A stretch of 64,000 nucleotides of DNA, taken from NCBI GenBank assembly GCA_944472155.2, contig OX235279.1, positions 176,803,868 through 176,867,867 of the forward strand. Reading direction: 5' to 3'. The stretch comes from Trichobilharzia szidati (taxonomy: Eukaryota; Platyhelminthes; Trematoda; Strigeidida; Schistosomatidae). Positions 1,395-61,980 of this stretch are shown here, one piece after another. How positions within the stretch are numbered: position 1 is the stretch's first letter; the number at the start of each line of letters is the position of its first letter. The notes under the pieces were generated by a model that was not told the origin of the DNA, searched no databases, and saw nothing but the letters and a program-made list of their open reading frames with translations. The position numbers and the translations under genes are program-made.

Positions 1395-1740
1395 TAACGA
1401 ATTCATCGAGCCATGACCGGTAGGGCACAGCAGGTCCAAGGTGAGGACAGTTACGCATCGAAAAAGACATTGCAAAGTGGTCGCGCTATGTCGTGAACTG
1501 GCAGAAGTTAGAATTCACTGGCTGGTCATTGGATTGTGTCCCAGTGGTTGCTTAATGGTCCACGAGCTCGCCTTGTAACCAGAAGGCCCTGGGTCCGAAC
1601 CCCGCAGTGTGGGTGCGTACTGGTGAAGAGTCCCGAGCACTATGACGAAACAGCTGTCCAGTACTCCAGCGATGGTTTTCAATGGTTCTCTAACTGATGT
1701 CAGCTCATGATGAAACCCTCCAACCAATTAAACTAAGTCC
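1395..1740 (+). mobile_element. tRNA-like SINE with hammerhead-like box (SM-alpha-like)
   Basis: Contains a tRNA-like part (CCAGTGGTTGCTTAATGGTC, then a degenerate box B near GGGTCCGAACCCC) followed by a hammerhead-like layout at 1617-1665: GTACTGG, TGAAGA, a weak stem, GAAA, CAGCTGTC, CAGTAC. GTACTGG and CCAGTAC are complementary (helix I), and ACAG/CTGT could form helix III. The expected C of the CUGANGA core is G here, as in the copy at 61.28 kb. Schistosome SM-alpha SINEs are known to carry hammerheads. This copy is probably inactive. Confidence 0.6.
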
Positions 1741-5941: not shown

Positions 5942-6439
5942 TGATGAGACATCGGAAATGTGATAATGATAATGATAAAAATGGTGAAACAACACAATTT
6001 TTGCACACCACATATACTATGTATGTATCAGTAAACGAGTTTTTGATTGGAGAGACAATAATATTTCACTCTGGTCGATAAAAAGTAACTGAACAATCAC
6101 GGCATTGTGATTGGCTAATATAGACGGTACATTTTAATGACCTTGGTTTATAGATTGGTATGTTTTGGTATATATACACATATGCACAATGTAACACGCA
6201 AACAGACAATATTTAATTGCCAAGCACGTATAGTTAGAAGAAGAACATCGACAAATCTTTTCTAATTTTATTACGAGTAAATAGCTAAACTACACATTCT
6301 TATGCAGTAGTTTGCAATTAAAATACAAATATGGCCTTATGGTTACGGTATAGGGGGAAAGTACTTCGTTGTTGCAAGTTCAGTTAACTACTATCAATTC
6401 ACTCAGTATTACTTCTACTAAGCGAATTTTCGTTAATAA

Positions 6440-6875
6440 GCCCAGAAATAATAATAATAGCTTTATTCCAAACAGTATTTGTGGTACAGGTATGGAATTT
6501 TCAGCGTGCATTACAATATTGCATCTAATTACCTCATAAATTTTTATAAGATTTTAAAAAACAAAAGCAACAACAACAAAAAGAAAAAAAGAGAAATAAA
6601 AGAAATAAACAAGAACAGCATGAAAGATAATATGAAAGATAATTACCTCATAAATTTTTATAAGATTTTAAAAATCAAAAGCAACAACAACAAAAAGAAA
6701 AAAAGAAAAATAAAAGAAATAAACAAGAACAGCATGAAAGATAATATGAAAGATAATTACCTCATAAATTTTTATAAGATTTTAAAAATCAAAAGCAACA
6801 ACAACAAAAAGAAAAAAAGAGAAATAAAAGAAATAAACAAGAACAGCATGAAAGATAATATGAAAGATAATATTA
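6440..6875 (-). mobile_element. CR1-clade LINE 3' UTR
   Basis: On the minus strand this matches the 3' end of the CR1 copy at 63.44-63.63 kb: an A/K-rich run, then ATTAGATGCAATATTGTAATG, GCTGAAAATTCCATACCTG, GGAATAAAGC and a terminal (TTA)n. It is 5'-truncated with no coding part. It contains an internal triplication described separately. The open frame 6479-6886 on the plus strand is an artefact of that repeat. Confidence 0.8.
6528..6869. repeat. Three tandem 114-bp repeats inside a LINE 3' UTR
   Basis: The unit starting ATTACCTCATAAATTTTTAT begins at 6528, 6642 and 6756, giving a 114-bp period. The copies differ at only a few bases. 114 is divisible by three, so a chance open frame runs through all copies as repeats of NYLINFYKILK with Lys/Asn-rich linkers. 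The homologous 3' UTR near 63.5 kb has one unit, so this is a local expansion. Confidence 0.85.
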
Positions 6876-6979
6876 CAAATTCATGAGTTTATAGTCTCTA
6901 CTGAGGGCCAGGGCAAACAACAAGTCCAGCCCCTACAACTGCCCTGGCCCTCAGTAGAAACCATAAACTCATGAATTTG
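6876..6979. repeat. Hairpin: 40-bp inverted repeat with 24-nt loop
   Basis: Arms 6876-6915 and 6940-6979 are reverse complements except for about two mismatches and include CTACTGAGGG and CCAGGGCA. The right arm merges into the PLE3 terminal repeat. It could be a fold-back remnant at a retroelement junction or part of an unrecognised short inverted-repeat element. Confidence 0.7.
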
Positions 6980-7195
6980 CACTATAATCTCTTCTAATTC
7001 TTCTGACACTCAGTTTATTTCACGTTGATGCTGTTCAGCTGTAATTTATCAATATTATTGATTTGATGTTATTTAAACACTAATGTCGTTCATAAGACTA
7101 ATTCATTCATTCACCATAATGTATATATAATTGTAGAACCTGATGATGAATTTATCGAAAAGAGACGGTATTCTTTGTTCCGTGTCCATTCTTTT
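6977..7195 (+). repeat. PLE3 terminal repeat, plus orientation
   Basis: Diverged copy of the right arm at 5332-5545 (CAGCTGTAATTTATCAATATT, then GTAGAACCTGATGATG). It carries CTGATGA at 7140 and GAAA at 7157. Confidence 0.7.
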
Positions 7196-7639
7196 GAAAA
7201 TCGATTCGTTAAAAACGCGGGATACGTACGTGTGATAAAATTTTGCATTATCTGTGAATTTCATCAATTGAAAGCTTAAGCGTTATCTCATATTTTAAGC
7301 ACGTTTACCACCTCGTAGTCTTCGAATGAGATAACATATTCTCCACCCTGAACCTGGATGGTATATTAGTGCTTTAGAATTGTCTTTTGTAGTTTGAGCT
7401 GTTACTTTCTTGTCCGCGAAAGTATTAATAAAGTTGTTACTGTATCAGCTTCGACCACAATTAGAGGACTTAAATAGTATAGATGAGTTTGACTGCAAAC
7501 ATACGAGGAGTAGGTAGGATGCTATCACCGTTTTACAATTAGGCGTGTTTCTCGTCGGATTTCCGAACACCACCCTGCATAGTGGTTAAGCAAGAGACAA
7601 ATAAAATCCATTCATAGCTCTATTCTATCTCATCTCGTG
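7196..7639. other. Unassigned sequence
   Basis: Lies between a PLE3 terminus and a PLE3-like C-terminal fragment and is probably part of the same decayed element. No reliable reading frame. Confidence 0.4.
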
Positions 7640-10566: not shown

Positions 10567-13500
10567 CTAGCCGGTCCTAAGCTCGGGTAAAGAGGGGGGT
10601 TGGGCTTGGGGCTAGCGACCCTACACTACTAAACTTATCGAACAGCAAGAGAAATTTCAACGCACAGAAAATATATCAAAAATACAAAAAATGTGAAAAA
10701 CACACTTATTCTTCGCTGTAATCGGAGAGGCGAAATATCAAAGCAGTCACCCAGCCGATGTTCTCTCTACAAAAGCAAGAATAAGAATGGGGACGTGGAG
10801 TGTCCGTACAATGTACGAGGCTGGCTGGGAAGACTTAAGGTTTTTCAGGGCTTCTATTTCTGGTTTTGTCAGGTTAGGCTTTCCACATTTTTGTCGTTTT
10901 ACTGGGCTGGCTGACTGCCCAGACAGCCAAAGAAATGAGAAGATATGGTATAGAAGTTCTGGCAGTCTGTGAGAGCAGATGGAACGGATGTGGATTATCA
11001 AATTGTCAACTGGAGAGTCAGTAACATCCCAAATAACGACATCAAAACCTTCATGAATGTTAAAAATGCCAGGTGAGCTGGGAGTAGACAGTAAAGGAAG
11101 AGAACACATCATGGCATGAGAGGCTCTCACCCGGCGAAATGAATGGGAGCGGAGAACTCTCCATAGACTTCTAGGCTTTCAATGATTTGGTGGTTGCAGG
11201 CATTGGGTACAAACACAAGGATACACACAAAGCAAGATGGATTTCGACTGACAGACACACCAAAAGCCAGACAGACTTCATCTCAATGCCGCTTAAGGAA
11301 CTGGAGACACAGACTGCCTGCCTGCTGGACACAAAGTCGTGAAGGGGAGCAGATGTGAGCTCAGACCATCACCTATTGCAAGTTACCTTTAAGGTGAAGC
11401 TAAAATTCCCCAAAACAACTGGAAACAGGCCACCGTAATTCAAGTTCAACATTCAGAAACTGTAGGCCAAAGCCACAATGGATACCTGCCTTCATTTCAG
11501 AACAGGTCAAAGCAATGTCGGAGACACTACGTGGTATGAGTGAAGGAACACTGGAACTCTCTGAAGGTGATGGTGAGGGAAACGTGTGAAGTCGTTCTAG
11601 GGAGAAAGAAGAGACACGACAAGGAATTGTTCTCAACGGACACCTACCTGGAAGCTAATAGAAGAGAGGAGAGAAGAATGGTGAAAGAGAAGCTGACTCA
11701 ATGCAAAGATGGGCAGTAGAAGGAGAAGCTAAGTTCACAGCAATGCACACTGCACCGAATAAGGAAATAAGTGAAGAAGGCTGCTAGGAAAGACAAAAGA
11801 CAATTCTACGACACACTGGCTGGCAACTGAAGCAGAAGAGGCAGGCTGCAGGTAAAAGAGACATGAGTACATTAAACCACATAACCAGGCTGCTCGCTAT
11901 CCGAGAAGAGATTAAACCAGATGATGAAACCAATAAAAGATACTCAAGGAAACCAGATTACCGAGGAGGAGAAACAAATAAGACAATGGGCTGATCACTT
12001 TAAAGGACTCTCGAAACGATCATATCCTGTAACTCATCCAGAAATACACCAACAGCACGTGCGGAACTGCCTGCCAGTGGACACCATTCCTCCAAAGAAC
12101 GAAAGCAGAAATCCTAAATGCGATCAAGCTACTGAACGCCGGCCAGGAAGGCGGCAGGTCCAGATGGAATTCCTCCCGAAGCACTGAAAATGGACCCAGA
12201 GGCTGCGGCAGATTTTCTGATGACATTACTGCAAAAGGTTTGGAAAGAAGGAAAGGTACCTACCGATTAGAAGAAAAGCTGGTTACCTTGTCAAACTGCC
12301 AAAGAAGGGCGACTTAGGCCTGTGCAAGAACTGGCGTCGAATCATGCTTTTCCATGCCAAGTAAAATACTAAGTCGCATCATCCTGGAGAGAATGGGAGA
12401 TGCACTGGAAACAGAACTCCGCCACTCACCGAAACAAGCTGGCTGGCTTGAGGAAAGGCAAATCATGTGCTGATCAGATTGCAACTCTACGCATCGCTAC
12501 CATCATCGAACAAAGCAAAGGATGGCAGTCAAACCTCTCTCTACCTCACAGTGTTATACAGTAATATTTACTGATGACGTTTCGAGCACAATTTATTGCT
12601 CATAATCATATCAAGTTAATCACACGACTTCCATTGTTTTTCACTTGATTTGATTGGTAGTATTATTTTCCATATCTCGGGTATGAGTGATGATTCATTC
12701 CTATTGCATGTGTTGGGTGTAGATTCGATGAACAAAGATTCAGTAATCAACCTCTCTCTCCACCTACCTAGATTACTTTTTAGAATTTTAACCCTCTCCC
12801 ACCCTATTGTGTGGTTGTGTGTTAATGCATGCATTGCAATTGCCGAGCTTTTTTCCAAATTACTTATCTTCTCTGGGTCAACCATTCTTTTCTTAGCTAG
12901 ATGGAACTATATAAATGAATTTAGGAAATCGTGTGATTAACTTGATATGATTATGAGCAATAAATTGTGCTCGAAACGTCATCAGTAAATATTACTGTAT
13001 AACACTGTGAGACTCTATAAAAATAAAATTTACCCATAATGGAATTACACTCTACCACAGTGCCCAAGTTTTATTCTTATATCAATGACTCTCTCTACCT
13101 CAACTTCATTGACTTCGAAAAGTCCTTTGACAGCGATGACTGTGGAGTAATTTGGAAACTAATTCAACATTATGTAGTGGACCAAGTGTTTATCAACCTC
13201 ATTCAACCACAGCTATATGAAAGTGATCCACAACAGGAAACTCAGTGAGGCGTTCGAAGTGCATACAGGAGTAAGACAAGGCTGCGTGCCTATTAACACC
13301 AACGATGATATTCCTAAATGTGGTGGACTGCATTATGTGTCAGACTGGGCGCGTTGAGAGTGAGAAGACATGAATACGCTGCACTGACCGATAAGAAGAC
13401 TCGAGAAGATCTGGATTTCTTGTGTGTGGATGATTTATGTCTAATGTCACACAAACCCGAAGACTTACAGGCGAAAACTAGCTGAAGAAGCAGACAACGA

Positions 13501-19529: not shown

Positions 19530-20085
19530 GTGCTCCAGAAGGAGCTGCAATCGTGTATGCACCTATATCATTGGTAACTGATAGATTTGACTTCAGTCGT
19601 AAGTGGCAGAAAGGGGGACGCTAGGTAGAGCTACGGTGATGGCAATGTCGGAAGTTAGTGCTGGGGAGAAATAGGTTGTGGTGTGCAAAAAGTCTCAGAA
19701 GACGGTCTCCATTCTCTCATCTGTAACCATATGGATCCCATCCAATAGTTAGTCGACTGTCCTCTGATTCTTTACGCCCAACCAGTGCACCCAAGTCCTT
19801 TAGCTAGCAGCACTAAGATATCTGTTTGACGCACCTACTTCAGAAACTCACTTAACTGATAGTATAACTCATCCTTCATCGTATCTGGGCTACAATTCAT
19901 CAGTGCCTAGACAGATTTGAGAAACAGACGCCACTTCTCTGGCCAGTTGCATCTTACTCTGGTAAAGCCTTTTAGCCTCGGGAAATAAACCACTGTTATT
20001 TGGTACCCAGTCGAGCAATACATAGTAAAATAATGCTGCAGGCTCTTTTATCAGATAAAATTATTCTTGAATGGAATATCACCAC
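19530..20085 (-). pseudogene. F3 LINE endonuclease fragment
   Basis: The minus strand reads CSPDTMKDELYYQLSEFLK, then VRQTDILVLLA and GWA.RIRGQ, the layout of an APE-type endonuclease around YxxL...DxxVLxGDxN. The GDxN catalytic motif is not preserved and stops are present. Confidence 0.45.
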
Positions 20086-20233
20086 CACAGTGTCCAAATT
20101 CTATTTTTCTATTAATGGAGAAAATTTAATCCGATAACAATAAAATACAAATTGTTAACATACGGTGGTAACGATTTCATAAGGACTAGTATAACTAATT
20201 GAGTAGCTTGGCAGCGTTTCACATGGAAGTTAC

Positions 20234-23750: not shown

Positions 23751-23799
23751 GATTAACACAGGCATATAGCCTACTATCCTAAATAAATTGTAAACTGCA

Positions 23800-24530
23800 A
23801 ACTGAAGGACCCGTTGGACCCAATTAAACAAAATAATATAACTTACAAAATACCCTGCAATGACTGTGAAGTCAACTACATAGGTCAAACTAGTAAGTCA
23901 GGGATAGTCAGATTATCAGAGCATAAGAATTTAGCTAAGGTAAGAATGGTTGACCTCGAGAAGATAAGTAATTTAGAAAAAAGCTCAGCTATTGCACTTC
24001 ACGCATTAACAAACAACCACACAATAGGGTGGGATAGGGTTAAAATTCTAAAAATATAGGTAGGTGGAGAGAGAGAGGTTGGTTACGGAATCCTTATTCA
24101 TCGAGTCTACACCCAACACATGCAATAGAAGTGACTCAATGCAAATACCAGAAATATGGAAGATATTATTACCGCCGGTCAAATCAGAAGAGGATAATAA
24201 ATAATCTTAAAATTCTATTTCCATTCAAACACATCAAAACTTTCTAACAATTAACTTATTATGACTATAAAAACACTCGTCGTATTTCCCATCTAATTGT
24301 AATGGATTAATAACACTCGTACTATTATTTCTGAATGTACATTATGTCATATTGAATTTTATTCCAATATGTAATCGATTCCACACATGAATATAAATGA
24401 AGGAAAGAAGTTGTGTGAGTAACTTGATATGATTATGAGCAATAGTTTGTGCTCGAAACGTTATCAGTTAATTTAACTGTACAACACTGTGTGATTTATC
24501 AAATAAAATCTTATCCATTATGGAAATGCG
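23800..24530 (+). pseudogene. PLE family 2, 3' part with GIY-YIG and terminus
   Basis: The frame 23814-24059 reads NNITYKIPCNDCEVNYIGQT, then VRLSEHKNLAK and VDLEKISNLEKSSAIALHAL. CxxC and YIG are the GIY-YIG nuclease start; the C-terminus follows frameshifted near 24060-24200. The 3' terminal sequence at 24410-24528 (GATATGATTATGAGC, GTGCTCGAAACG, then CAAATAAAATCTTATCCATT) matches the ends at 4.3, 12.6, 12.95 and 36.9 kb. RT is absent. Abuts the 3' end of the CR1 LINE. Confidence 0.8.
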
Positions 24531-25106
24531 TAGAATAAATTAATTTTACAAGGATAACACGTAATTAAACATGAAGTGATCAGAAAAAATAACTTAGACA
24601 ATTGTAATTTTTATAATTTTAAAGGTTTAGTGGGAGGGGGCGATGTAGTCTTGTTTATGCATTCCTGTAACGATGGCCACGGTAAGGAAAGTGGCTGTAC
24701 AAATCTCTTCTTAACACACAGGTTTGGATTCTTCAGGTGGATTCCGATTGCTTCAGCTGTCTGTAGAAGACGAACTCGTAGAGCAAAATTAAGATTAGTC
24801 GGAATGCGATAAATAATTTTAAATGGTGTATTAACATCAACCTTATGCTCTGTATCAACAGGGTGTGCTAAAATAGAGCTACGAGTAAATCTTGTTTATC
24901 CCTTGCTTAACCATGTTGGATGATGTTCGGAAATACGACGATGAAACTGCCTAATTGTACGCCCAATGTAGCTAGCTCCGCAGCTGCAGTCAAACTGGTA
25001 GATACACATAGAAGAGGCAAATTTAGGTAGTTTATCCTTATTTCTCGAACGTAGAATAGGGGCGGTTGTGAAGAGACAACGTACTTCTGCTGCATAATAA
25101 GCTCTT

Positions 25107-25439
25107 TTAACTGCATTCTTCAGGTGTTCGCTGTGTTATTATTTCGCTGATGTTGTTACCGAGGAACAGCAGTTTTATGAACATTGGTTTTTTCAGAACT
25201 GTTGCTATACTGACTCTCCTAGGTGCTGAATTCATATTTTTCTGAATGAATTTATCTGGATAACCATTTTTTCTAAGTAATTCTTTAATAATCTTAAGCT
25301 CCTCATTGAGGCAGTCGTCTGAACAGATTAACCTGGCTCTATGAACCAGACACTTTACCAGGTTACGTTTATATTTCAAAGGTACAAAACTCAAAAAAAT
25401 GAGTGTACTGACCTGTTCTTGTAGGTTTTCTATACACAC
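25107..25439 (-). CDS. PLE3 RT thumb and linker segment
   Basis: 110 codons overlapping the preceding RT frame by about 70 nt: LKYKRNLVKCLVHRARLICS, DDCLNEELKIIKELLRKNG, YPDKFIQKNMN. This basic helical region lies between RT and GIY-YIG in PLEs (compare YPPRFIEKNMN in PLE1 at 59.2 kb). The GIY-YIG part continues below 25107 in another frame. Confidence 0.75.
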   Translation of the reverse strand: MCIENLQEQVSTLIFLSFVPLKYKRNLVKCLVHRARLICSDDCLNEELKIIKELLRKNGYPDKFIQKNMNSAPRRVSIATVLKKPMFIKLLFLGNNISEIITQRTPEECS

Positions 25440-25968
25440 TCCTTCTTAGTGTGCCATCTTCTTTCCTTGCCATGAAGACGTCTAGGAATGAGATACTGTC
25501 ATTACTTTCTTTCTCCATAGTAAAGTTTATTGCTGAATGTGCATCATTAAACTTGTCAAGGATATTCATTGCATCATTCTCATCTTTCATAACCACAAAT
25601 GTATCATCCATATATCCACAGTAGAAATCCAAGTCATTAATTACTCCTTTCAGTGGTCCATTCTCTAATTTAGCGAGGAAAAAATCAGCTAGGATTGGAC
25701 CTAATGGGGAACCCATAGCTACACCATCAATTTGCCTGTAATATTCCTTATTGAATAAGAAATGAACATTCATTGTACATCTTAAAGTAAGTTCCTTCAA
25801 GGTGGATACAGAAATCCCTATGTCTGTGTTTCGTGTAGTAATCTCCTCACATATGAAATCCACTGTCTCCATTAATGGTACATTGGTGAACAAGAAGAAT
25901 ACATCAAAAGATATCATAAACTTGTCCTGAGGAAGCCTGATATAATACCCAGTTAGCAGTAGAAACAT
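25369..25968 (-). CDS. PLE3 reverse transcriptase domain
   Basis: 199-codon open frame holding the RT palm. Block A is FMISFDVFFLFTNVPLMET; RCTMNVHFLFNKEYYRQIDG precedes block B, GVAMGSPLGPILADFFLAK; block C is YMDDTFVV with both catalytic Asp; FLDVFMARKEDGTLRRSVYRK closes the domain. This is the PLE (telomerase-like) RT arrangement. A frame change at about 25370-25440 links to the next open frame, which carries the thumb and linker. It is the longest intact PLE RT in the window, but there is no in-frame start upstream. Confidence 0.85.
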   Translation of the reverse strand: MFLLLTGYYIRLPQDKFMISFDVFFLFTNVPLMETVDFICEEITTRNTDIGISVSTLKELTLRCTMNVHFLFNKEYYRQIDGVAMGSPLGPILADFFLAKLENGPLKGVINDLDFYCGYMDDTFVVMKDENDAMNILDKFNDAHSAINFTMEKESNDSISFLDVFMARKEDGTLRRSVYRKPTRTGQYTHFFEFCTFEI

Positions 25969-25999
25969 TGGTGAAGGATATCGATAGCTTGAAACGAAA

Positions 26000-26794
26000 C
26001 GTCAGTAAATATCAGTGGATTTCTGTTACCTGATTTGATCAGACACACTGAAGAAGACTAACTCCCATGGGCTACGGACATGATCAGGAGCGAAAGTCGT
26101 TCAGATGCAGGCGGATTAAATGTCTTTGCGATGACCATCAATCGCGGTACGCAAAAAGCCAAAGTGATTGGAATTACCAGTAGTACGTAACAGATTAGAA
26201 CTATTTAGACTCAGAAAATATACGGGCTATAAAAAAACCCACCGATAGGTGAAACAACCAGACAAAACCGTACTTTGGTTACTGTCCAGAACAGATAACG
26301 GGAAAGATGGATGGAAAACATTACGAATCAGGCAGCTCACATTCATCCAACATCTACACTTGAATGAGATGTAGACATAGGTCCTCCAACTGCAAACAAA
26401 GTTGCACAATCTGTCGCAAATCTCACAACTTAAAGAACGAGTCCACAGGCGTTTAAAGACCCTGATCAAAAATGTATTCACTGAGCTAGGGAAAACAACA
26501 GATGATAACAAGCATGATCTAAAGACTTTTCTGCAAGACTGGCATAGATCATGCATTAACCCAGTACACAAGAAGTGAGAAAAGTCATCTCCTAATCTAA
26601 ATGGACTAACCAATGCAGACTCCAACTATAAAGATGGGCAGTTAAGTAGTAGCTGAGCGTTTTGACCACTCCACTTATTTAGGATATTGCACCAGCCCCC
26701 AATCGACTGATTACAGATAATACCTCGGTAAGGATACAAAAAGCACGTATGATATTTGCCAACTGAAGCCGTCTCTGACGTAAAAGTAATAATA
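26000..26794 (+). pseudogene. Unidentified retroelement remnant
   Basis: Near 26660-26780 the plus strand reads FDHSTYLGYCTSPQSTDY and KSTYDICQLKPSLT, resembling the post-RT segment of non-LTR LINEs (TYLGS...ARIQKARxAFxxLxxLW). The upstream part has short open frames without motifs. Family assignment uncertain. Confidence 0.35.
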
Positions 26795-28790: not shown

Positions 28791-29567
28791 GTGATTCGTA
28801 AGTTACTCAGACGTAAACACAAATGTTGGAACCTGTTTGCCACACTTGAGACTCCTGAGACCAGGAAATTATATAACACTGCTAGGAATAAAGCTGTTGC
28901 AGAAATCCGCCAATCAAGGATGAAGTTCGAAGCACATCTGGCTCAAAATGCAAAGGCACAACCTAAGAAGATTCTCTCGTACATGAACTTCAGGAATAAA
29001 ACATCCAATGGTGTCCCAAACCTGACTATTGACACTGACACAATCGAAGAAGATCAAGCAAGGGCAGAAACAATGGCAGACTACTTCTCCCAAGCCTTCA
29101 AACAGGAGTCATCACTCCCTATAGGATCAGCTCTAGCTGCATCAGAGGAATTCGGGATAGATTCCGTTGACATCGACCAAGGCATTATACTTAACTGCCT
29201 AATGAAACTAGGTGCAGGGAAACCAATGGGTCCTGATAATCTTCATCCAAGGCTTCTCAAGGAGCTATCAGCTCACATAGCCGGCCCACTGACCATGATC
29301 TTCAAGCTCTGTCTCCTATATGGAGAGTTACCGTGTGACTGGAAAGACGCCATAGTAACCCCCATCCACAAAGGAGGTTCAAGACAAAGCCCTTCAAATT
29401 ACAGGCCTATCAGTCTCACCAGCACTTTAATCAAGACACTGAAAAGAATCATCAAGAGTAGCATAATGGCATATCTAGAAAATAGAAGCTTATTATCAAG
29501 AGCACAGCACGGCTTCCGAAGAAACCTCTCATGCCTGTCAAATCTCCTCACTGCGAGAGAAAGCTGA
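28791..29567 (+). pseudogene. CR1 LINE linker and RT N-terminal blocks
   Basis: 258 codons: IRKLLRRKHKCWNLFATLE (linker), MADYFSQAF, KLGAGKPMGPDNLHPRLLKE, LPCDWKDAIVTPIHKGGSRQ, NYRPISLTSTLIKTLKRIIK and QHGFRRNLSCLSNLL. Ends at a TGA (29565-29567); the reading resumes immediately as DVVFIDFSKAFDKVPQKRL (block A) in the same element at about 29600. Confidence 0.8.
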
Positions 29568-35655: not shown

Positions 35656-36820
35656 ACTACAGTAAGTGATTTACTTTGCACATCAAACAGGTATAGACCA
35701 TGATAACTGAATTTATTGTTAAGCTGTTTCACATTTGATAACGCCCGTAAAGCTGCACATTGATGAGAGTAAACTATTATTATTCAAACAGGCAGCCACG
35801 AAGAGGAAATCAATTAGGTGTTAATATAGACAATGAGTAGCTATCTTTTGCAAATCACAAAGTATGGTTTTTGGTCCTTTCATGACAGTTTTTTATACAA
35901 CACTCTACTGTTTAAATTTCTAAATTCGAATGTACGGGCACAAATCCTAATGAAGTTATCTCTAAATTTTCCGAAAGACATATAAGGACAAAGTTGTGGA
36001 TGCAAAAAATTTTCAGCGCCCAACAAGGTGGCCCTAGTAAACTATTTACACTAATTAAAATACCTATGAACAACATTACCAGTTTTATCAAAAGCAACCC
36101 AACTGCCTCGCTTACAATATCTGTAATCCTATGCATTATGGCGTAATCTTTTCTCAGAAGCCCATCGAAAAAGAAAAGTTAAAACACAGGTTTCAATAAA
36201 TCTTGGGCGAATAGGTCAGTTTATACCAGAAAGTTTCAGCTTCCATATGTAATAGGTCGAAGCAAAATTCTCCCCGAAATCATCACCATGTGAGATTATC
36301 GACAAAGACTAGAAGGAAGACTGACACCAGATTAGCGATATTTGGTCCGTTCAATGTGTTAGCACAGTAAGTATCATACGACACATGGGATCGGGTCGGT
36401 GGGTGCAAGTCTTGTCCACCATCAATAACTAAAGATAAAATCGGCACATTTAGAGGGATTCAGTTAGATAGTAACTAGATGAGAACGCCGTTGATATTCA
36501 TACGAAAACAGTTTAGTGTAGAAAAACCGGAAAAGAGGGGTGGCGGGTTGTCAGAACGCCAAATAAGGCTAGTTTTCAATTGTTCTTCTCCATCGCTGTT
36601 CTAGTTTGATCAATAAAACAGCCTGTCAGCTGCCCTGCCTAATACTTAGAGAGAATCCAACCCCTGTCATACATAAACTTGTTGTTCTAGCAAAAAGCTT
36701 ACTACCGATGTTGCCTGTTGTATTGGTCCTGGATTTTAATTGAAATGTTGTGCAGATTATCTTTCTTCTGGAATCAAGATCATGCGTAGGGTGAAGACCC
36801 TACAGATCCAGTTGAGAGAC
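35656..36820. other. Unassigned; short plus-strand open frame
   Basis: The plus strand at about 35926-36145 reads TNPNEVISKFSERHIRTKL and later FIKSNPTASLTISVIL before a stop. No acceptor or family signature supports it. Otherwise nothing recognised. Confidence 0.3.
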
Positions 36821-36951
36821 ATAATGGATAAGATTTTATTTTGATAAATCACACAGTGTAGTACAGTTATATTAACTGATACGTTCGAGCACAAACTATT
36901 GCTCATAATCAACTTGCTCATAATCATATACCACAGTGCCCAAGTTTTATA
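36821..36951 (-). mobile_element. Mini-PLE (termini only), 131 bp, 13-bp TSD
   Basis: Flanked by CCAGTTGAGAGAC at 36808-36820 and 36952-36964. Consists only of PLE2 terminal sequence: ATAATGGATAAGATTTTATT, CGTTCGAGCAC and CCACAGTGCCCAAGTTTTAT. No coding sequence. Related elements with their own TSDs are at 43024-43161 and 55094-55231. Confidence 0.85.
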
Positions 36952-36964
36952 CCAGTTGAGAGAC

Positions 36965-42696: not shown

Positions 42697-44240
42697 ATGT
42701 CGGAGAGAAAACCAACCAACAAGAGGACATGTGCCTCAGTAGGTCCAAGCGGTCAGTACCTCACTAGTCTGGAGATGGCTGAAACATTGAGCTTAGCCTC
42801 CACCAAACAGTTAAACAGCAATGTGGGTATTACCGGTACGGGCCAAAATGGCGACACTAATATTTCGCCGGAGGAAAACCTAGCGGCCACTCCCCAAATA
42901 AACCCGGCAATAGTACTAGGGAAGCTACGGAGATTCACATCTGGAAAGTCCCCAGGTTATGATGGCATCAGGCCATCTGTTCTGAAAGAGTGCGCCGAAG
43001 CTCTCTGTAGGCCTTTATGCGACTTGATATAAGTATAAAACTTGGGCACTGTGGTAGAGTGTACTTTATTATGGATAAGATTTTATTTTGATAAATCATC
43101 AGTTAATATTACTGTGTAACACTGTGTGATTTATCAAAATAAAATCTTATCCATAATGGAATTTATGCGACACTCGATGGATTCGGGGAAACTGCCAAGT
43201 GAGTGGAAAAGAGCTATCCTTTCTCCTATTTTCAAGGGTGGGGACAGGCAAAATGTCACCAGTTATAGACCAGTAGCATTACTCCCGGTGGTATCAAAAG
43301 TACTGGAAAGCTTAATTGACGGTCACATTAGGAAGCACCTCGATAGGACTAACAGACTCCATGAATCACAAAGTGGTTTCAGGAAATGCAGATCCTGTGT
43401 AACAAACCTGCTATCAGCTTGGGACGATTGGAGATCATGATGGCGTATGAATATTCCGATCCATAAGTTCTTCCAAGACTTTGAGAGGGCATTTGATATA
43501 GTTCACCTTGACCTTCTCCTACACAAAGTAATTCAGACAAGTATAGGAAATTTTGCACTAAGGTCAATTGAGTTCGATCATTTGGGCACGGCTCGTCATC
43601 AGGAGCGTCGCAGGTCTTTATCCTATGACCACTAATGTTTTTGATTCTTATCGATGACCTACCATGCCCTCTAATCTGCCCAACTCCTTACTCTGACGAA
43701 GTAAAGATATGGGGCAATAAAGTGTTCGGAAGACTGAGATAGGCTGCAGGCAGTTCTAAAGCTTCTGGAAGACTGGGCGGTGGCCAGTGGCATGACTTTC
43801 AACCTGAAAAATTGCAAAGTAGTGAAGTTACGTACATGTAGACTGCAGAATGCAAGTTACACCCTGTACAATGAAAGCTTGTCCTGCACACTTCGGAACG
43901 TGACTTAGGTCTAGTTCTAATGGATAAAATGGACACAAGTGTGCATTACACGGGGGACGTAGCGAGGGCATATGCGGTCATACACTTTTCAAATAGAAAG
44001 TTAGGTGCACTCACTCTTGAGCTCTTTCTAAGGTTGTACAAAACATACGTCAGACTACACCTTGCAGTGCATAATATAATTGCACCCCTACTGCTTAGAA
44101 GAGACACGAATTTTTTGGAAAGAGACCAACGACCAGTGACAAAAGAAGTGGTGGGTCTCCGAAACAAACCATATGATGAACGACTGAGGAAGTTGGATAT
44201 CTTCACACTTAGCTACTGTCGGTCTAGGGGGGACTTGATT
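42697..44240 (+). pseudogene. LINE C6 RT, split by a mini-PLE
   Basis: KLRRFTSGKSPGYDGIRPSV (42910-42975), then the insertion, then SGKLPSEWKRAILSPIFKGG, SYRPVALLPVVSKVLES, SQSGFRKCRSCVTNLLSAW, FFQDFERAFDIVHLDLL (block A), PYSDEVKIWG (block C: YADD has become YSDE) and NKPYDERLRKLDIFTLSYCR. The catalytic Asp pair is lost. Confidence 0.75.
43024..43161 (+). mobile_element. Mini-PLE, 138 bp, 10-bp TSD
   Basis: Flanked by TTTATGCGAC at 43014-43023 and 43162-43171, interrupting a LINE RT frame that resumes on the far side. Starts with AAAACTTGGGCACTGTGG (minus-type terminus) and contains 31-bp inverted repeats (ATTATGGATAAGATTTTATT... at 43070 and its complement ending at 43158) around a short AT core. 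No protein. Confidence 0.9.
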
Positions 44241-48419: not shown

Positions 48420-49180
48420 CTGTCGTCAAGATTTGACTGAATAGTTCTAAAATATTTGGGCGCCGAGTGAGAAGTAGACATTTGTAAAAAAAATTATATT
48501 TGTAAAATCTCAGCGAAATTGAAATGAGTACTTCTAACGTTTCGTTCGGCAATCTGGTCCGAACTTATTCAGGGAAATTAATCGAAATTAACATAACATA
48601 GGTTTATATATAAAAGGCACTTTTTTTGTTTTTAAAAACTTTGTCCAATCATGATTCATAAAACAAGTATTAACAAGTATAATAAACAAAGTTGTATGAG
48701 CTGTGATCAAAATTTGACCTCGGACTTACAAATATTGGTCTACCTTTGTTAAACACCTTAAACAGAGTGTGCATGCTTGTGTGGGTAAACAGTTGTAAAA
48801 CATTTCTTAACGTCTCCATGAGAAGATATAGACAGTCAGGAGTTTGACCAAGTATTAATAATTAATGATGCATATCCATTTTTATTTATTAATCAGGATT
48901 TCCTATGCATCAGCTAACATCAAACCTTCATGTTTGTTCAGACTGCTAGTATCTAGAATTTTATGATTAGACGTATTTTCAAAATTATGGTGTTTAGGAT
49001 TAGAGTTTAGTTTAAGCGCCCTGTCGAACTTATTGCCTTTTAAATATATACCTCTGTTATGTTAATTTCGATTAATTTCCCTGAAGAAGTTCGGACCAGA
49101 TTGCCGAAAGAAACGTTGGAATTACTCATTTCAATCTCGCTGAGATTTTACAAATATAATTTTTTTTCCAAATATATATA
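48420..49180 (-). mobile_element. PLE family 4 remnant with inverted terminal repeats
   Basis: Inverted arms at about 48500-48612 and 49055-49175 share AATTTCGATTAATTTCCCTG and CAGCGAAATTGAAATGAG. Between them the minus strand reads NKFDRALKLNSNPKHHNFEN and then LDTSSLNKHEGLMLADA, a PLE C-terminus. Hammerhead-like strings (CTGAAGA, stem GTTCGG/CCGAA, GAAAC) occur in each arm. A third arm copy is at 63.8-64.0 kb. Confidence 0.7.
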
Positions 49181-49182
49181 TA

Positions 49183-50260
49183 TATATAATACTAAACATT
49201 ATTCCGAACAATAATGATCATATATAGTGGAAACTTTCCAGCATTACGCATTCAGATGAAAGAGAGAGGAAAAATATCCAGTTACCAGGCGGGCCAAGGA
49301 AAGACTGATAACCGCTTCTTTCTGAATGCATAAATCAGGTTTCAGGCGCTTGATGAAAATGGCTTCAGCAAACTTGAGGAGAATTGAGCTCTTTTGCCTA
49401 TTGATAATTTTGAACGACTTTTCGACGTCCACCTCATGACCCGTGTCAAGGAGATGCCTGGCGTTGGTACTGTTTAAAGCATTTGTTCCTTTGAGACGTA
49501 AGCTTTTTGGTACTTGTTCAGAAAATCGTAGATATGCTCTTCTTTCTGTCCTTCCAATGTAACTGCTCCCGCAGATACATGTAAATTTGTATATACAGTT
49601 GAGTTAACATGAGGAGGATATCTATCGATTTCTGATTGCATCAAAGAGCAAGTTGTTCGATAGACGGGGACGAGCTTAGCTGCAGAATAGGCTATGGCTA
49701 GTGATGTCCTCAGCTTTCTGTTGATCATCGCTGAAATGTTTTTATCTTTTTAATCAAGCTGAATGTAGATTGGCTTTTTTCTTACTGTGATATCGGAGTG
49801 ATGAATCACAGAACCACCTATAATAAAACAGATTCAAAGAAATCATAAAATGCGCGGTTGAAAATAGAAATTAATCCAGCCGACTAAGTACCTGGTCCGG
49901 GGTTCGATTCCTGGCCAACGCACTCCTTTACTTCGCCAAACCAGAAATAATGCTGGGGAAGAGGAAAGGTTAGGCATGAGGCTACCACCCCCATCCTGTA
50001 AAATAAAAACTGCTACAGAAACTTCAAGCCACTAGCTTGAAGCCCTATGTTCCACTGGGGAACGCGTAGAAAAAAAAATCCAGCCTAAGAATAAATACGT
50101 CAAATTAGTACACTCTGTCTACGTACCAAAATCAAACTCAAGAAAAACAATAGACAAATAAGAAAAGGCCTGCAGGTACAAAGAAAAGAAATATAAAATT
50201 AATATGACTATAAGTTTCCAGACCGCAGATGTTACCAATTTCCTGAAATAATTTGAGCGC
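49183..50260 (-). mobile_element. PLE family 5, copy 1 (minus), with SINE inside
   Basis: Minus-strand body: MINRKLRTSLAIAYSAAKLV (49728), then in the next frame CIYKFTCICGSSYIGRTERR (GIY-YIG), then EVDVEKSFKIINRQKSSIL and IKRLKPDLCIQKEAVISLSL (49432-49244). A one-base frameshift just before CIYKF is shared with the copy at 56.07-56.56 kb, so it predates their duplication. The X terminal segment at 49740-50260 contains a SINE A (49883-50076). Protein-level sequence of the two copies is identical over both open frames. Confidence 0.8.
49883..50076 (+). mobile_element. SINE A, 5'-truncated, 9-bp TSD
   Basis: Flanked by AATCCAGCC at 49874-49882 and 50077-50085. The paralogous sequence at 56.69-56.71 kb has a single AATCCAGCC and no SINE, an empty site. 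Begins inside the head (TGGTCCGGGGTTCGATTCC) and retains the RTE-like tail CCCTATGTTCCACTGGGG. Confidence 0.95.
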
Positions 50261-54756: not shown

Positions 54757-55093
54757 TATCTTTGGTACAAATGGAAACTATCGATAATAGGCCGTAACAT
54801 ACTATTCTCCAAACTTGCCAAGAAGCAGTCTGCAAGTAAAGGACCCAATGGTGACCCCATTGCCACTCCATCTTTTTGTCTATAAAGCATGTTGTTGAAC
54901 TTGAATTGAACGTTTAAAGTGCATCTCAACAGTAGTTCCTTTACGTAGTGGATCGGAACACACACGTCTACATTATTATCCTCAATGAATTTCCATATAA
55001 AGCAAATAGTTTCAGTGAGGAGAACATTGGTGAAAAGGGAAATAACATCCATGGATATCATTTTCTTCCCGGATACATTAGCATCAGTTATTA

Positions 55094-55231
55094 ACTCCAT
55101 TATGGATGAGATTTTATTTTGATAAATCACAGTGTTACACAGTCATATTAACTGATGACGTTTTATCAAAATAAAATCTTATCCATAATGGAGTTACACC
55201 TTACCACAGTGCCCAAGTTTTATCCTTATAT
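55094..55231. mobile_element. Mini-PLE, 138 bp, imperfect 12-bp TSD
   Basis: Flanked by CATCAGTTATTA (55082-55093) and CATCACTTATTA (55232-55243), one mismatch. Contains inverted ATTATGGATGAGATTTTATT and ATCTTATCCATAATGG around an AT core with TGATGACGTTTTATC, and ends with CCACAGTGCCCAAGTTTTAT. The PLE1 copy at 58.57-58.60 kb lacks it, so its insertion there is secondary. Confidence 0.85.
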
Positions 55232-55734
55232 CATCACTTATTAGTCTCTTATTCTACCTTGGTCTTAACCTCTTCACTAGTCGTTTCCTGTAAAATATTT
55301 CGATTTTTTCTTCTCCTGTTTTTAAACTTTTAATTTTACTTTTAGTTTGCTTTTACTTTAATAATTAATTCACTATTATCACTCTCATTTGCTCCCTGTT
55401 GTACATTTTCACACCCTCTTCACACTGGTTAAGTGGGCACTCAACTAACTTTATTCTCACTCATTCAATAGCAATTTTAACCTTATCAAATTTCTATGTG
55501 TGTGCCGTTGAGTACCATGTAATTTACAACTTTTATTATTTTTTTTTACTTCTAAAGCCACTTTCAAATGATTATATCAATTATGTCACCCTCTATTACT
55601 CAATAATAGACCACTATACATTTTTTTGGTAAATATAAACACGACTGTACAGTAGAGACTGTGAAGATGATTTCGTCGATAGAGAAAATTTTCTTCACTG
55701 AATTTGTCTTTTATTTTGAATGAAATGATTCAAT

Positions 55735-58075
55735 CTGACTCGGCGCTCAAATTATTTCAGGAAATTGGTAACATCTGCGGTCTGGAAACTTATAGTCATA
55801 TTAATTTTATATTTCTTTTCTTTGTACCTGCAGGCCTTTTCTTATTTGTCTATTGTTTTTCTTGAAGTTGGTTTCGGTACATAGACAGAGTGTACTAATT
55901 TGATGTATTTATTCTTAGGCCGGATTAATTTCTATTTTCAACCGCGCATTTTATGATTTCTTTGAATCTGTTTTATTATAGGTGGTTCTGTGATTCATCA
56001 CTCCGATATCACAGTAAGAAAAAAGCCAATCTACATTCAGCTTGATTAAAAAGATAAAAACATTTCAGCGATGATCAACAGAAAGCTGAGGACATCACTA
56101 GCCATAGCCTATTCTGCAGCTAAGCTCGTCCCCGTCTATCGAACAACTTGCTCTTTGATGCAATCAGAAATCGATAGATATCCTCCTCATGTTAACTCAA
56201 CTGTATATACAAATTTACATGTATCTGCGGGAGCAGTTACATTGGAAGGACAGAAAGAAGAGCATATCTACGATTTTCTGAACAAGTACCAAAAAGCTTA
56301 CGTCTCAAAGGAACAAATGCTTTAAACAGTACCAACGCCAGGCATCTCCTTGACACGGGTCATGAGGTGGACGTCGAAAAGTCGTTCAAAATTATCAATA
56401 GGCAAAAGAGCTCAATTCTCCTCAAGTTTGCTGAAGCCATTTTCATCAAGCGCCTGAAACCTGATTTATGCATTCAGAAAGAAGCGGTTATCAGTCTTTC
56501 CTTGGCCCGCCTGGTAACTGGATATTTTTCCTCTCTCTTTCATCTGAATGCGTAATGCTGGAAAGTTTCCACTATATATGATCATTATTGTTCGGAATAA
56601 TGTTTAGTATTATATATATATTGGAGTGATGAATCACAGAACCACCTAAGATAAAATAGATTCAAAACAAAGAAAAAATGCGCGGTTGAAAATAGAAATT
56701 AATCCAGCCTAAGAATAAATACGTCAAATTAGTACACTCTGTCTATGTACCAAAATCAACCTGAAGAAAAACAACGGACAACTAAGAAAAGGCCTGAAGG
56801 TATAAAGAAAAGAAATATTAAATTAATATGACTATGAGTTTCTACCTCAACTTTATAGACTTTGAGAAGGCCCTCGACAGCGCTGACCGCGAAGTAATTT
56901 GGAAACTACTCGAGTACTACGGCGTACCCCAAATATTCATCAACCTTATTCAACAGCTGTACGACAACGGCACATGTCAAGTGATCCACAACGGAAAAAT
57001 TAGTGAAGCGTTTGGAGTAAACACAGGAGTCAGACAAGGGTGCTTATTATCACCAATGATATTCCTAATCGTGGTGGACTGGATCATGCGTCAGACAGTA
57101 GGAAACGAGAAGACTGGGATACCCTGGACCGACGTGAAGAACCTAGAAGACCTGGATTTCGCGGATGATTTATGTTTGATGTCACACAAAATCGAAGACT
57201 TACAAGCAAAACCGACAAACTGGTCGAAGAAGCAGCAAACACAGGACTGACTCCAGGTGAACATAGAGAAGACGTAGGTTATGAAAATAACCAAACAACT
57301 ACCACCACCAACAACAGCAGCAACATCCAGTGCCAATCACCATCAACGGGAGGGATTTGAAAAAGGTTACGTCTTTCACTTATCTAGCTATGGAGCATTG
57401 TCTCAACTACAGGAGGAACGGACGAGGATGTCAAATCGAGCGAGAATCGGGAAGGCGAGAAACACATTCATCAACCTGAAACCAATCTGGAAATCTTCGT
57501 CACTCAGCAACACTCAACAACAAAATTCGGATTTTCAATACAAACGTCAAGTCAGTCAGTTCTTCTATACGGATCAGAAACTTGGCCAGTGTGTCACAGA
57601 GAATACTTCCAACAGCCTGTTGCAGACCTTTGTCAACAACTGTCTTCGTGCTATACTGAAGATCAAATGGCCGGAAAGAATCACCAACAAGAAACTATGG
57701 GAACAAACAAACGAAACAAGAACCAATCGCTCAACAAATATGCAGGAGAAAGTGGAGATTGATTGGACGCTCGCTGATGAGGCCGCTGGGTGACATCGAG
57801 CGTCAGGCCATCACTCGAGTGGATCCCGAAAGGGAAGCGGCGAGTGGGACGTCCAAGGGTGACATGGAGGAGATCGTGTGACGAGGAGCTGAAACAGTAT
57901 GGACTAACATGTATGCAAGTGAAAAGTACAGCAGAAGACAGAAGCAAGTGGAGACGTGCAGTTGAAGCCCTATGTTCCTCAAGGAACCCAGGAGAAAAAT
58001 AAAAATATAATAATGAGTTTCCAGACCGTAGATATTACGAATTTCCTGGAATAATTTGAGCGCCGAGTCAGATCG
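55735..58075 (+). mobile_element. PLE family 5, copy 2, with inverted X termini and RTE insertion
   Basis: X terminal segment (55735-56036, plus), body (56040-56560), then X again in minus orientation (56621-56841 and 58013-58075), the latter split by an RTE. Body frames: 56071-56325 and 56367-56555, with CIYKFTCICGSSYIGRT readable between them after a one-base shift. It is the reverse-complement partner of copy 1 at 49.18-50.26 kb. Confidence 0.8.
56842..58012 (+). pseudogene. RTE-clade LINE (copy D), 5'-truncated, 8-bp TSD
   Basis: Flanked by ATGAGTTT at 56834-56841 and 58013-58020. Starts in RT block A (YLNFIDFEKALDSADREVIW), then GVRQGCLLSPMIFLIVVDW (block B), NLEDLDFADDLCLMSHKIED (block C with both Asp) and a stop at 57250. 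Later frames give RARIGKARNTFINLKPIWKS and LRAILKIKWPERI, and the tail is AGCCCTATGTTCCTCAAGG plus an A-rich end. The endonuclease is missing. The palm is better preserved than in copy A. Confidence 0.9.
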
Positions 58076-58594
58076 AATCATCTCATTCAAAATAAAATCC
58101 GAATAAACAAAAGATAAATTCCGTGAAAGGATTCTCTTTTTCGACGAAATCATCTTCACAGGCTGCACTGTACGTTTGTATTTATACTTATCAAAAATGC
58201 ATAGTGGTCTATTAGTGAGTAATACAACTGGGGTGACATTATTGATATAATCACTCGGAAGTGACTTTAGAAGTATAAAGTTAAAAGTTGTAAATTACGT
58301 GGTACTCAACGGGACAAACATAGAAATTTGATAAGGTTAAAATTGCTATTAAGTGAGAATAAAGGTAGTTGAGTGTCAATTTAACAAGTGTGAAGAGGGT
58401 GTGAAAATATACAAAAGCAGCATATGAGAGTGATAATAGTGAATTAATTATTAAAGCAAAAGCAAACTTAAAATAAAATTTAAAAAAGGAAAACAAAAAA
58501 TTGAAATCTCTTTTTACGGGGAACGACTAGTGAAGAGGTTAAGACCAAAGTGGAATAAGAGACTGATACTTGATGCTAATGTATCTGGGTAGAA

Positions 58595-60944: not shown

Positions 60945-61385
60945 AGGATTTCATCATGAGCTGACATCAGTTAGAGAACCACTGGAAAACCTGAGAGTAC
61001 TGGACAGCTGTTTCGCCCTACAAAACCAATACTTGAAAATTAATCTGATGCTCATTAGCGACTGGACCTATTCAGAGAGTTAACCTGGGGTTCTACGGGG
61101 GTAGAGCAGGTTGAAGATGACGCAGTTACTCATCGAAGAAGACACTGTGAAGTGGTTGCGCTATGTCGTGAATTAGCAGAAATTAGAATTCATGGGCCAT
61201 TGGATCGGGTCCCAGCGGCTCAATGGTCAATGAGCTCGCCTTGTAACCAGAAGGTCGTGGGTTCGAACCCCGGTGGGTGCGTACGGTGAAGAGTCCAAAC
61301 TAGGACGAAACAGCTGTCCAGTACTCCCAGGTATTCCAGTGGTTCCATAACTGATGTCAGCTCCTGATGAAATCCTCCATGCAAT
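60945..61385. mobile_element. Inverted pair of SM-alpha-like SINE pieces
   Basis: 60945-61019 is a minus-orientation 3' piece (GGACAGCTGTTTCGCCCTAC); 61075-61385 is a fuller plus copy. The plus copy has a tRNA-like part (box B GGGTTCGAACCCC) and a hammerhead-like box at 61281-61324: GTACGG, TGAAGA, GTCC...GGAC stem, GAAA, CAGCTGTC, CAGTAC. As at 1.6 kb, the first C of CUGANGA is G. Confidence 0.65.
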
Positions 61386-61680: not shown

Positions 61681-61980
61681 AATTTAATTGGTGGATGATG
61701 ACTAGCAGTGGAATCCAGGATAACGCGCATTTCGTCCTATTTGGGACTCGTCATCTGGATGTACCTGCATTTCCCAGTGAGTGATGATGTTTCCACCGAG
61801 GCTCGAACCCAGTGCCCATAGTTTCAAACGCCAAAGCGTTATCCACTGGGTTCGAGCCTCGGCGGGAACATCATCACTCACTGGGGAATGCAGGTACATC
61901 CGCTAGCTGACGAGTCCTAAATAGGACGAAATGCGCGTTATCCTGGATTCCACTGCTAGTCACCATCCACCAATTAAATT
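61681..61980. mobile_element. 300-bp palindrome of two SM-alpha-like SINEs
   Basis: 61681-61813 and about 61845-61980 are near-perfect reverse complements (outer ends AATTTAATTGGTGGATG and its complement), with a 31-nt centre that has its own small hairpin (AACGCC...GCGTT). Each half has box B (GGTTCGAGCC) and a hammerhead. The plus half has a canonical core; the minus half has a mutated one. Confidence 0.85.
61890..61955 (+). ncRNA. Hammerhead ribozyme (SM-alpha type), candidate active
   Basis: CTGACGA at 61907-61913 (fits CUGANGA), stem II GTCC/GGAC closed by TAAATA, GAAA at 61928-61931, then ATGCGCGTTATC followed by CTGGATTCC. CTAG before the core can pair with CTGG after it (helix I). 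Helix III is very short (ATGC/GCGT), as reported for schistosome hammerheads, with an extra TA before the presumed cleavage site. That insertion may weaken activity. Confidence 0.65.

Follow-up and report, generated by a model that had tools for sequence, protein, structure and literature searches.

The window (the whole stretch of 64,000 nucleotides analyzed here) mixes LINE-like and PLE-like reverse transcriptases, and it contains three short insertions that consist only of end sequence of a Penelope-like element (PLE). Namely, in each of them an inverted arm (arm B), which begins at a conserved ATGG, is joined to an arm in the plus orientation (arm A), and arm A ends in a sequence that we call the tail (CCACAGTGCCCAAGTTTTAT…). 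In the following list, arm positions are given on a reference (ref) built from one genomic copy, L007, in which the leader occupies ref 1-105 and the tail ref 106-150.

36821..36951, plus strand: locus 1, 131 bp; arm B, filler and tail arm A
36820-36911: arm B of locus 1, inverted leader, ref 101 to 8
Between the arms of locus 1: filler of 17 nt
36929-36952: tail arm A of locus 1, ref 113-136
36808..36820: left target-site duplication (TSD) of locus 1, CCAGTTGAGAGAC
36952..36964: right TSD of locus 1, CCAGTTGAGAGAC
43024..43161, minus strand: locus 2, 138 bp, inside a LINE reverse transcriptase
43025-43098, minus strand: tail arm A of locus 2, ref 144 to 70
43096-43163: inverted arm B of locus 2, ref 39-106
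43014..43023: possible left TSD of locus 2, TTTATGCGAC
43162..43171: possible right TSD of locus 2, TTTATGCGAC
55094..55231, plus strand: locus 3, 138 bp, inside a PLE1; inverted arm B at ref 107 to 34, arm A including the tail at ref 73-144
55082..55093: left TSD of locus 3, CATCAGTTATTA
55232..55243: right TSD of locus 3, CATCACTTATTA, 1 mismatch
12549..13088, plus strand: composite of the same PLE ends, 540 bp, in an RTE-like LINE
23799..24524, plus strand: 3' part of a PLE copy, with a GIY-YIG-like stretch (23799-24056), 3' UTR and leader
20070..20104, plus strand: end of a diverged related PLE, tail with 3 mismatches

All three loci were found at the places and lengths given by the initial annotation, and the end it had described as shared is exact in each of them: CCACAGTGCCCAAGTTTTAT occurs four times without mismatch in the window (13055, 36931 and 55204 on the plus strand, 43035 on the minus strand) and once with three mismatches (20085, plus strand), and 100 shuffled versions of the window gave no match. 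Inverted repeats of the 31-bp class, also claimed for all three, are present at loci 2 and 3 but not at locus 1, which lacks a plus-strand leader and contains only inverted leader, the 17-nt filler and the tail.

All three loci represent genuine insertions. As for the independent TSDs of 13, 10 and 12 bp that had been ascribed to them, the first and the last stand, while the second is in doubt. At locus 1, CCAGTTGAGAGAC matches at 13 of 13 bp, which is strong. At locus 3, the TSD, CATCA(G/C)TTATTA, has a score of only 8, a value reached by 84 of 3000 null flank pairs; it is supported by its match at 11 of 12 bp and by a paralogous PLE1 copy elsewhere in the window (minus strand, near 58571-58578), in which the insert is absent and about one target copy is seen. 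The repeat at locus 2, given as GTCGCATAAA, matches at 10 of 10 bp and exceeds nearly all of the null: in two runs of 3000 mismatched flank pairs each, a score of at least 10 came up 0 and 21 times. That said, it is doubtful whether it is a genuine TSD, since deletion of one repeat copy, by our reading, leaves the LINE out of frame, and since the native length suggested by a related LINE at 29214 is a different one.

The ends of the inserts match the termini of a PLE with reverse transcriptase and a putative GIY-YIG endonuclease. The 540-bp composite runs from an inverted PLE 3' part through a plus leader into the tail, its flanks match LINE copies, and its 14-bp TSD, CTCTCTCTACCTCA, was read by eye (12535-12548 and 13089-13102). 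In the PLE copy at 23799..24524, the leader stops at the inner site (the ATGG) and is without a tail. In one genomic stretch, L029, leader and tail (7457-7604) sit 3' of a PLE-like ORF (6084-7235), whose match to the RVT_1 profile falls below the cut-off (E=0.00061), the same profile being clear in other PLE-like ORFs (2.9e-9 on the minus strand of L029; 7.9e-10 in the window, 25369-26001). The motif in the PLE copies we take to be GIY-YIG, with a weak profile match that is below the cut-off (E=0.12), and LINE clade names such as RTE-like are likewise presumptive. The inserts themselves contain no reverse transcriptase or endonuclease coding sequence, the two-arm forms being 131-281 bp of leader and tail, and they are therefore a product of a PLE and not an autonomous PLE. 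Their pattern, a pLTR with an optional inverted pLTR, a tail and a TSD, is that described in the accessible text on rotifer Penelope elements (PMC3846280).

According to the same accessible text, in the rotifer element Pen2a_Av the pLTR comprises the first 12 codons, and pLTR and tail together 22 (PMC3846280). Here, translation of the tail from ATG would give MELYSTTVPKFYTYIN or something near it, with the spacing kept in 36 of 37 tails found by pattern. However, the case for the tail as coding sequence is weak, since the pattern itself admitted only a narrow range of spacing, and since the codon changes over 36 tails are not mainly synonymous (65 nonsynonymous, 39 synonymous). Two further repeats of the window may be mentioned at this point: a 704-bp inverted duplication of 99.86% identity inside the PLE1-rich region (49178-49881 and 55918-56621), which would reflect very recent copying or conversion, and a unit of about 114 bp in three tandem copies of about 99% identity (6526-6871).

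Further copies were sought in the same genome (1.11 Gb). Locus 1 as the query gave 759 first-look candidates and locus 3 gave 4272, 40 being scored in each case, and at least 34 other matches, among those listed, cover nearly all of locus 3 (from query position 17 or before to 134 or beyond); 20 of these 34 were taken for comparison. The 44 clusters with two arms reduce to 41 independent copies, after removal of L001 (locus 1 itself), L025 (a duplicate of L016) and L065 (the same insertion as L073). These 41 are a non-random sample, in that 19 were obtained via the locus 3 query, which favours copies of its own length, 18 via the locus 1 query, 3 from the window and 1 from random stretches. 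A search for the tail in collections of bacterial/archaeal and of viral contigs gave no match in either, which is uninformative for an animal genome.

The outer end of arm B lies at ref 95-110 in 38 of the 41 copies (the exceptions are L007, with a tail on both arms, L038, in which B ends at 121, and L052, in which it ends at 86), and 40 of them have the outer end of arm A at ref 135-150. A TSD score of at least 9 is reached by 31 of the 41, as compared with 32 of 3000 mismatched flank pairs, and in these 31 the TSD is 10-17 bp long, most commonly 13 bp; the other 10 score below 9. The full range of insert lengths given above includes 26 copies at 131-159 bp, a cluster favoured by the queries. 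What is more, 16 random 10-kb stretches contained 11 leader clusters, one of them with two arms (L052); the latter is from a related PLE family and has the same form, with a 13-bp TSD and arms identical at 80 of 80 positions. From this single two-arm insert in 160 kb, one can make the very rough estimate that the genome holds two-arm inserts in the thousands, with a very wide error. A further 46 one-arm clusters, 2 of which have a TSD score of at least 10, were left out of the element count. A single-arm insert of leader and tail, 143 bp long and not inverted, was also seen at 1094-1236 of L033, with an 18-bp TSD containing one mismatch, and we regard it as a one-sided version of the leader-only product.

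The initial annotation had taken the three loci for members of a mobile non-autonomous family, for which many copies with sharp ends and TSDs would speak, and against which very few copies or randomly varying ends would count. Copies are indeed many, with sharp ends and TSDs, but this outcome does not discriminate, since a by-product of PLEs would also be numerous and sharp-ended if both its ends were reverse-transcription start sites. Would a family nevertheless be the better reading? In its strict form, a short palindromic master would be transcribed and re-inserted as a unit by the PLE machinery, and the large numbers of candidates for loci 1 and 3, as well as the at least 34 other listed matches along nearly all of locus 3, are what it leads one to expect. 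One can address the question by way of the internal junctions, where the two arms are joined, as copies of one master should share them. The 41 copies fall into 36 junction classes, only four of which recur (L005 with L011; L006 with L007 and L010; L063 with locus 3; L075 with L076).

The pair of L063 and locus 3, both of which carry GATGAG in arm B, is in favour of a family at first sight, and among the 20 copies fetched with the locus 3 query L063 is the only one with the junction of locus 3. However, junction sharing does not follow similarity for locus 3. Over aligned columns, with gaps uncounted, the identity of locus 3 to L063 is 88.4%, giving L063 rank 18 of 19 (L078, which has its tail on the opposite arm, was excluded from the ranking), and it reaches 95.0% for copies with other junctions, 17 of the 18 ranked copies of this kind being closer to locus 3 than L063 is; by BLAST with locus 3, on the other hand, L063 is about as good as the best of the others (88% versus 88% and 87%). 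Since L063 is less similar than 17 of those 18, the shared join looks like a microhomology event that occurred twice. In the same sense, L062 matches locus 2 at 97.5% identity despite a different junction, and the junction of locus 1 is found at none of the four other places that, among the matches listed, span locus 1 fully (L002, L003, L004 and L024). The idea that loci 2 and 3 are sisters, with a 3-bp difference at their joins and the GTGTAACAC variant in common, was rejected, as locus 2 is nearer to L062 than to locus 3 (94.4%). Altogether, we consider a true family unlikely. In other words, what stands of the initial proposal is that the inserts are derived from PLEs, non-coding, numerous and sharp-ended, with independent TSDs, and that they were most likely placed by PLE machinery; their status as a self-standing family is not supported, and the inserts look like by-products built afresh each time rather than members of a miniature transposon family.

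From the anatomy, the ends, the TSDs and the diversity of the junctions, we infer that the inserts are leader-only PLE insertions, primed on both target strands at two internal start sites of reverse transcription, with the two cDNAs joined head to head, and we put the probability of this reading at roughly two in three. The PLE protein would cleave both target strands about 13 bp apart, and from each exposed target end reverse transcription of PLE RNA would be primed at either of the two start sites: the inner one at ATGG and the outer one about 40 nt further on, at the end of the tail, both near the 5' end of the presumed coding region. With both sites presumably so near the RNA 5' end, no more than about 105-145 nt of cDNA (leader and tail) could be obtained from a monomeric transcript, and never the ORF. 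The two cDNAs would then meet head to head and be joined by microhomology, bluntly, or via a short palindrome in the leader. The result would be an insert of 131-281 bp that lacks an ORF, is palindromic in part, and has sharp ends and a TSD. The outer ends would thus be sharp probably because they are internal start sites, as in a lizard PLE, and no master element carrying them would be needed. In this way, dual priming on leader RNA would account jointly for the ends, the TSD, the absence of an ORF and the variety of junctions.

The arms themselves can be read in the same terms. In 5 of 22 elements (locus 1, L002, L003, L004 and L014) they do not overlap, and arm A ends at the point where arm B begins, which priming of both strands on a single RNA would lead one to expect; the pattern is as if two enzymes had shared that RNA. 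In 8 of the 41 copies the inner end of arm A lies at ref 94-113, beside the inner site. In the long forms, both arms extend to about ref 1-8, which may be the RNA 5' end. It should still be noted that the tail is on exactly one arm in nearly all copies, an asymmetry that independent choice of the two sites does not predict. Moreover, it is possible that some joined units have been copied, giving the recurring junction classes, and some junctions appear to have been altered after insertion, judging from two pairs of copies. Namely, L065 and L073 have near-identical flanks resembling a PLE 3' UTR and a leader-only insert with different centres, and look like one insertion, carried as a passenger or duplicated, whose centre was altered later. 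L016 and L025 lie 43 kb apart with identical flanks and TSD, one insertion present twice, and they differ in the hairpin loop (CAAGTTTCTTG versus CAAGAAACTTG), much as if the loop had been inverted.

Both pairs, with common flanks and differing centres, could also be taken to favour a shrinkage after insertion, whereby palindromes of about 240-250 bp would lose parts of their hairpin by slippage or recombination and so give the forms of 131-160 bp. We regard this as a rather improbable origin of the short forms, which are flanked by clear TSDs at many unrelated places, and the forms of the locus 1 type miss the leader of one arm, the other arm being nearly whole, where a central hairpin deletion predicts otherwise. 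Finally, there is the fold-back, proposed for rotifer Penelope in the accessible part of its report (PMC3846280), in which a single cDNA, or a template of antisense RNA, would prime itself at a palindrome and so generate the inverted arm. It agrees with joins that, by our reading, fall in the palindrome of the leader around ref 43-58 (L068, L072, L073, L075 and L076) and, as dual priming does, with arms that are similar on average within an element (mean difference 3.1% over 13 pairs, versus 6.5% over 312 pairs from different elements, the own partner being the nearest arm, with none closer, in just 8 of 26 tests). A fold-back is nevertheless very improbable, given that in the five non-overlapping elements about 94-106 nt of arm B are missing from arm A, so that B was not copied from A, and that in 38 of 41 copies arm B stops close to the inner site and lacks the tail, through which a fold-back copy should extend.

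Returning to dual priming, several known systems provide a comparison. In LINE-1 twin priming, two primings, one on each target strand, lead to an inversion. This fits the forms of the locus 1 type; in the long palindromes, unlike in twin priming, the arms copy the same region of RNA, which requires two templates or run-through. For the PLE of the lizard Anolis (PAc), the accessible text of a report from 2024 describes that both target strands are cleaved and extended and that reverse transcription begins at two adjacent internal RNA sites that bound the genomic tail (PMC11167929). The likeness is that here, too, the tail lies between two adjacent starts, arm B beginning at one end of it and arm A at the other. 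In contrast, the favoured start of PAc is 111-118 bp into the ORF, whereas the inner site here is at ATGG, and its start sites are reported not to differ between strands, whereas here the tail is nearly always on just one arm (PMC11167929, accessible text). The evidence for PAc comes from in vitro and read data, and the accessible text does not describe a class of leader-only palindromic inserts (PMC11167929). In Penelope elements of the rotifer Adineta vaga (Pen2a_Av and others), as far as the accessible text goes, pLTRs stand head to head with an optional 31-bp tail on one arm and TSDs of 8-10 bp, and solo pLTRs are reported (PMC3846280). The inverted pLTR, the optional one-arm tail and the TSD are as here, but in Adineta vaga, going by that text, this set of features borders an ORF or captured sequence, whereas here it is the whole insert, in many copies, with a commonest TSD of 13 bp.

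As a counterpart of MITEs or SINEs, which the initial annotation had called them, the inserts fare less well. Their outer ends are not mutual terminal inverted repeats (in 38 of 41 the left end starts close to the inner site, and in 40 of 41 the tail forms the right end), their TSDs do not have the fixed length expected of a transposase, and the 36 junction classes, four of them recurring, show no common internal structure derived from a master. A 3' end in common with an autonomous partner, as in SINEs, is present, in that tail and leader also occur in PLE-attached copies. On present evidence, the inserts are not a MITE or SINE family, even though insertion by PLE machinery is most likely. 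Another class of small elements is that of the metazoan retrozymes, described in the accessible text as small and non-coding, with type I hammerheads and tandem repeats, and with PLEs proposed as the helper (PMC7229834). A search of the window at the Rfam gathering threshold gave only four hits, all type I hammerheads (56.8 to 34.2 bits).

61281-61324, plus strand: hammerhead match
61713-61760, minus strand: hammerhead match
61901-61948, plus strand: hammerhead match
1617-1664, plus strand: hammerhead match

Two of these matches are oppositely oriented and 140 bp apart; the four are probably ribozyme-bearing retroposons. Taken with the mix of LINE-like and PLE-like reverse transcriptases, they would point to a flatworm of schistosome type. 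At the same threshold, no hammerhead was found in the three loci, and none was found at E<=10 in the related leader copies at 12400-13200 and 24200-24700. Being small, non-coding and linked to a PLE as helper, the inserts are like retrozymes as described in that accessible text, and they differ from them in type I hammerheads and tandem repeats, neither of which was found in the leader copies searched (PMC7229834). Hammerhead cleavage as the origin of the arm ends, which the joins of loci 2 and 3 near GTC^ATCAG had brought to mind, was rejected, because no Rfam ribozyme was present in the leader copies searched and because full arms pass the motif and continue to ref 1-8.

For PLEs, inverted pLTRs, tails and TSDs as well as solo pLTRs have already been published, as the accessible text of PMC3846280 makes clear. 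In a literature search, leader-only palindromic PLE inserts were not found described as a class; many subscription papers were outside its reach, and absence is unproven. Somewhat short of even odds, we tentatively suggest that leader-only palindromes are a major recurrent product of PLEs, the footprint of two-strand priming at two internal start sites, such that monomers would end blindly as mini-inserts and only tandem transcripts would give full copies, and that some palindromes may be mobilised again. For annotators, there is a caution in that a mini-repeat with sharp ends and flanking TSDs is not necessarily a mobile family. For the insertion mode of PLEs, mini-inserts with readable ends, TSD and join are a natural record of the reaction, giving the position of priming on each strand, the reach of the cDNA and the mode of joining. 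If true, dual priming would explain the tandems of PLEs, their inverted pLTRs and their optional tails.
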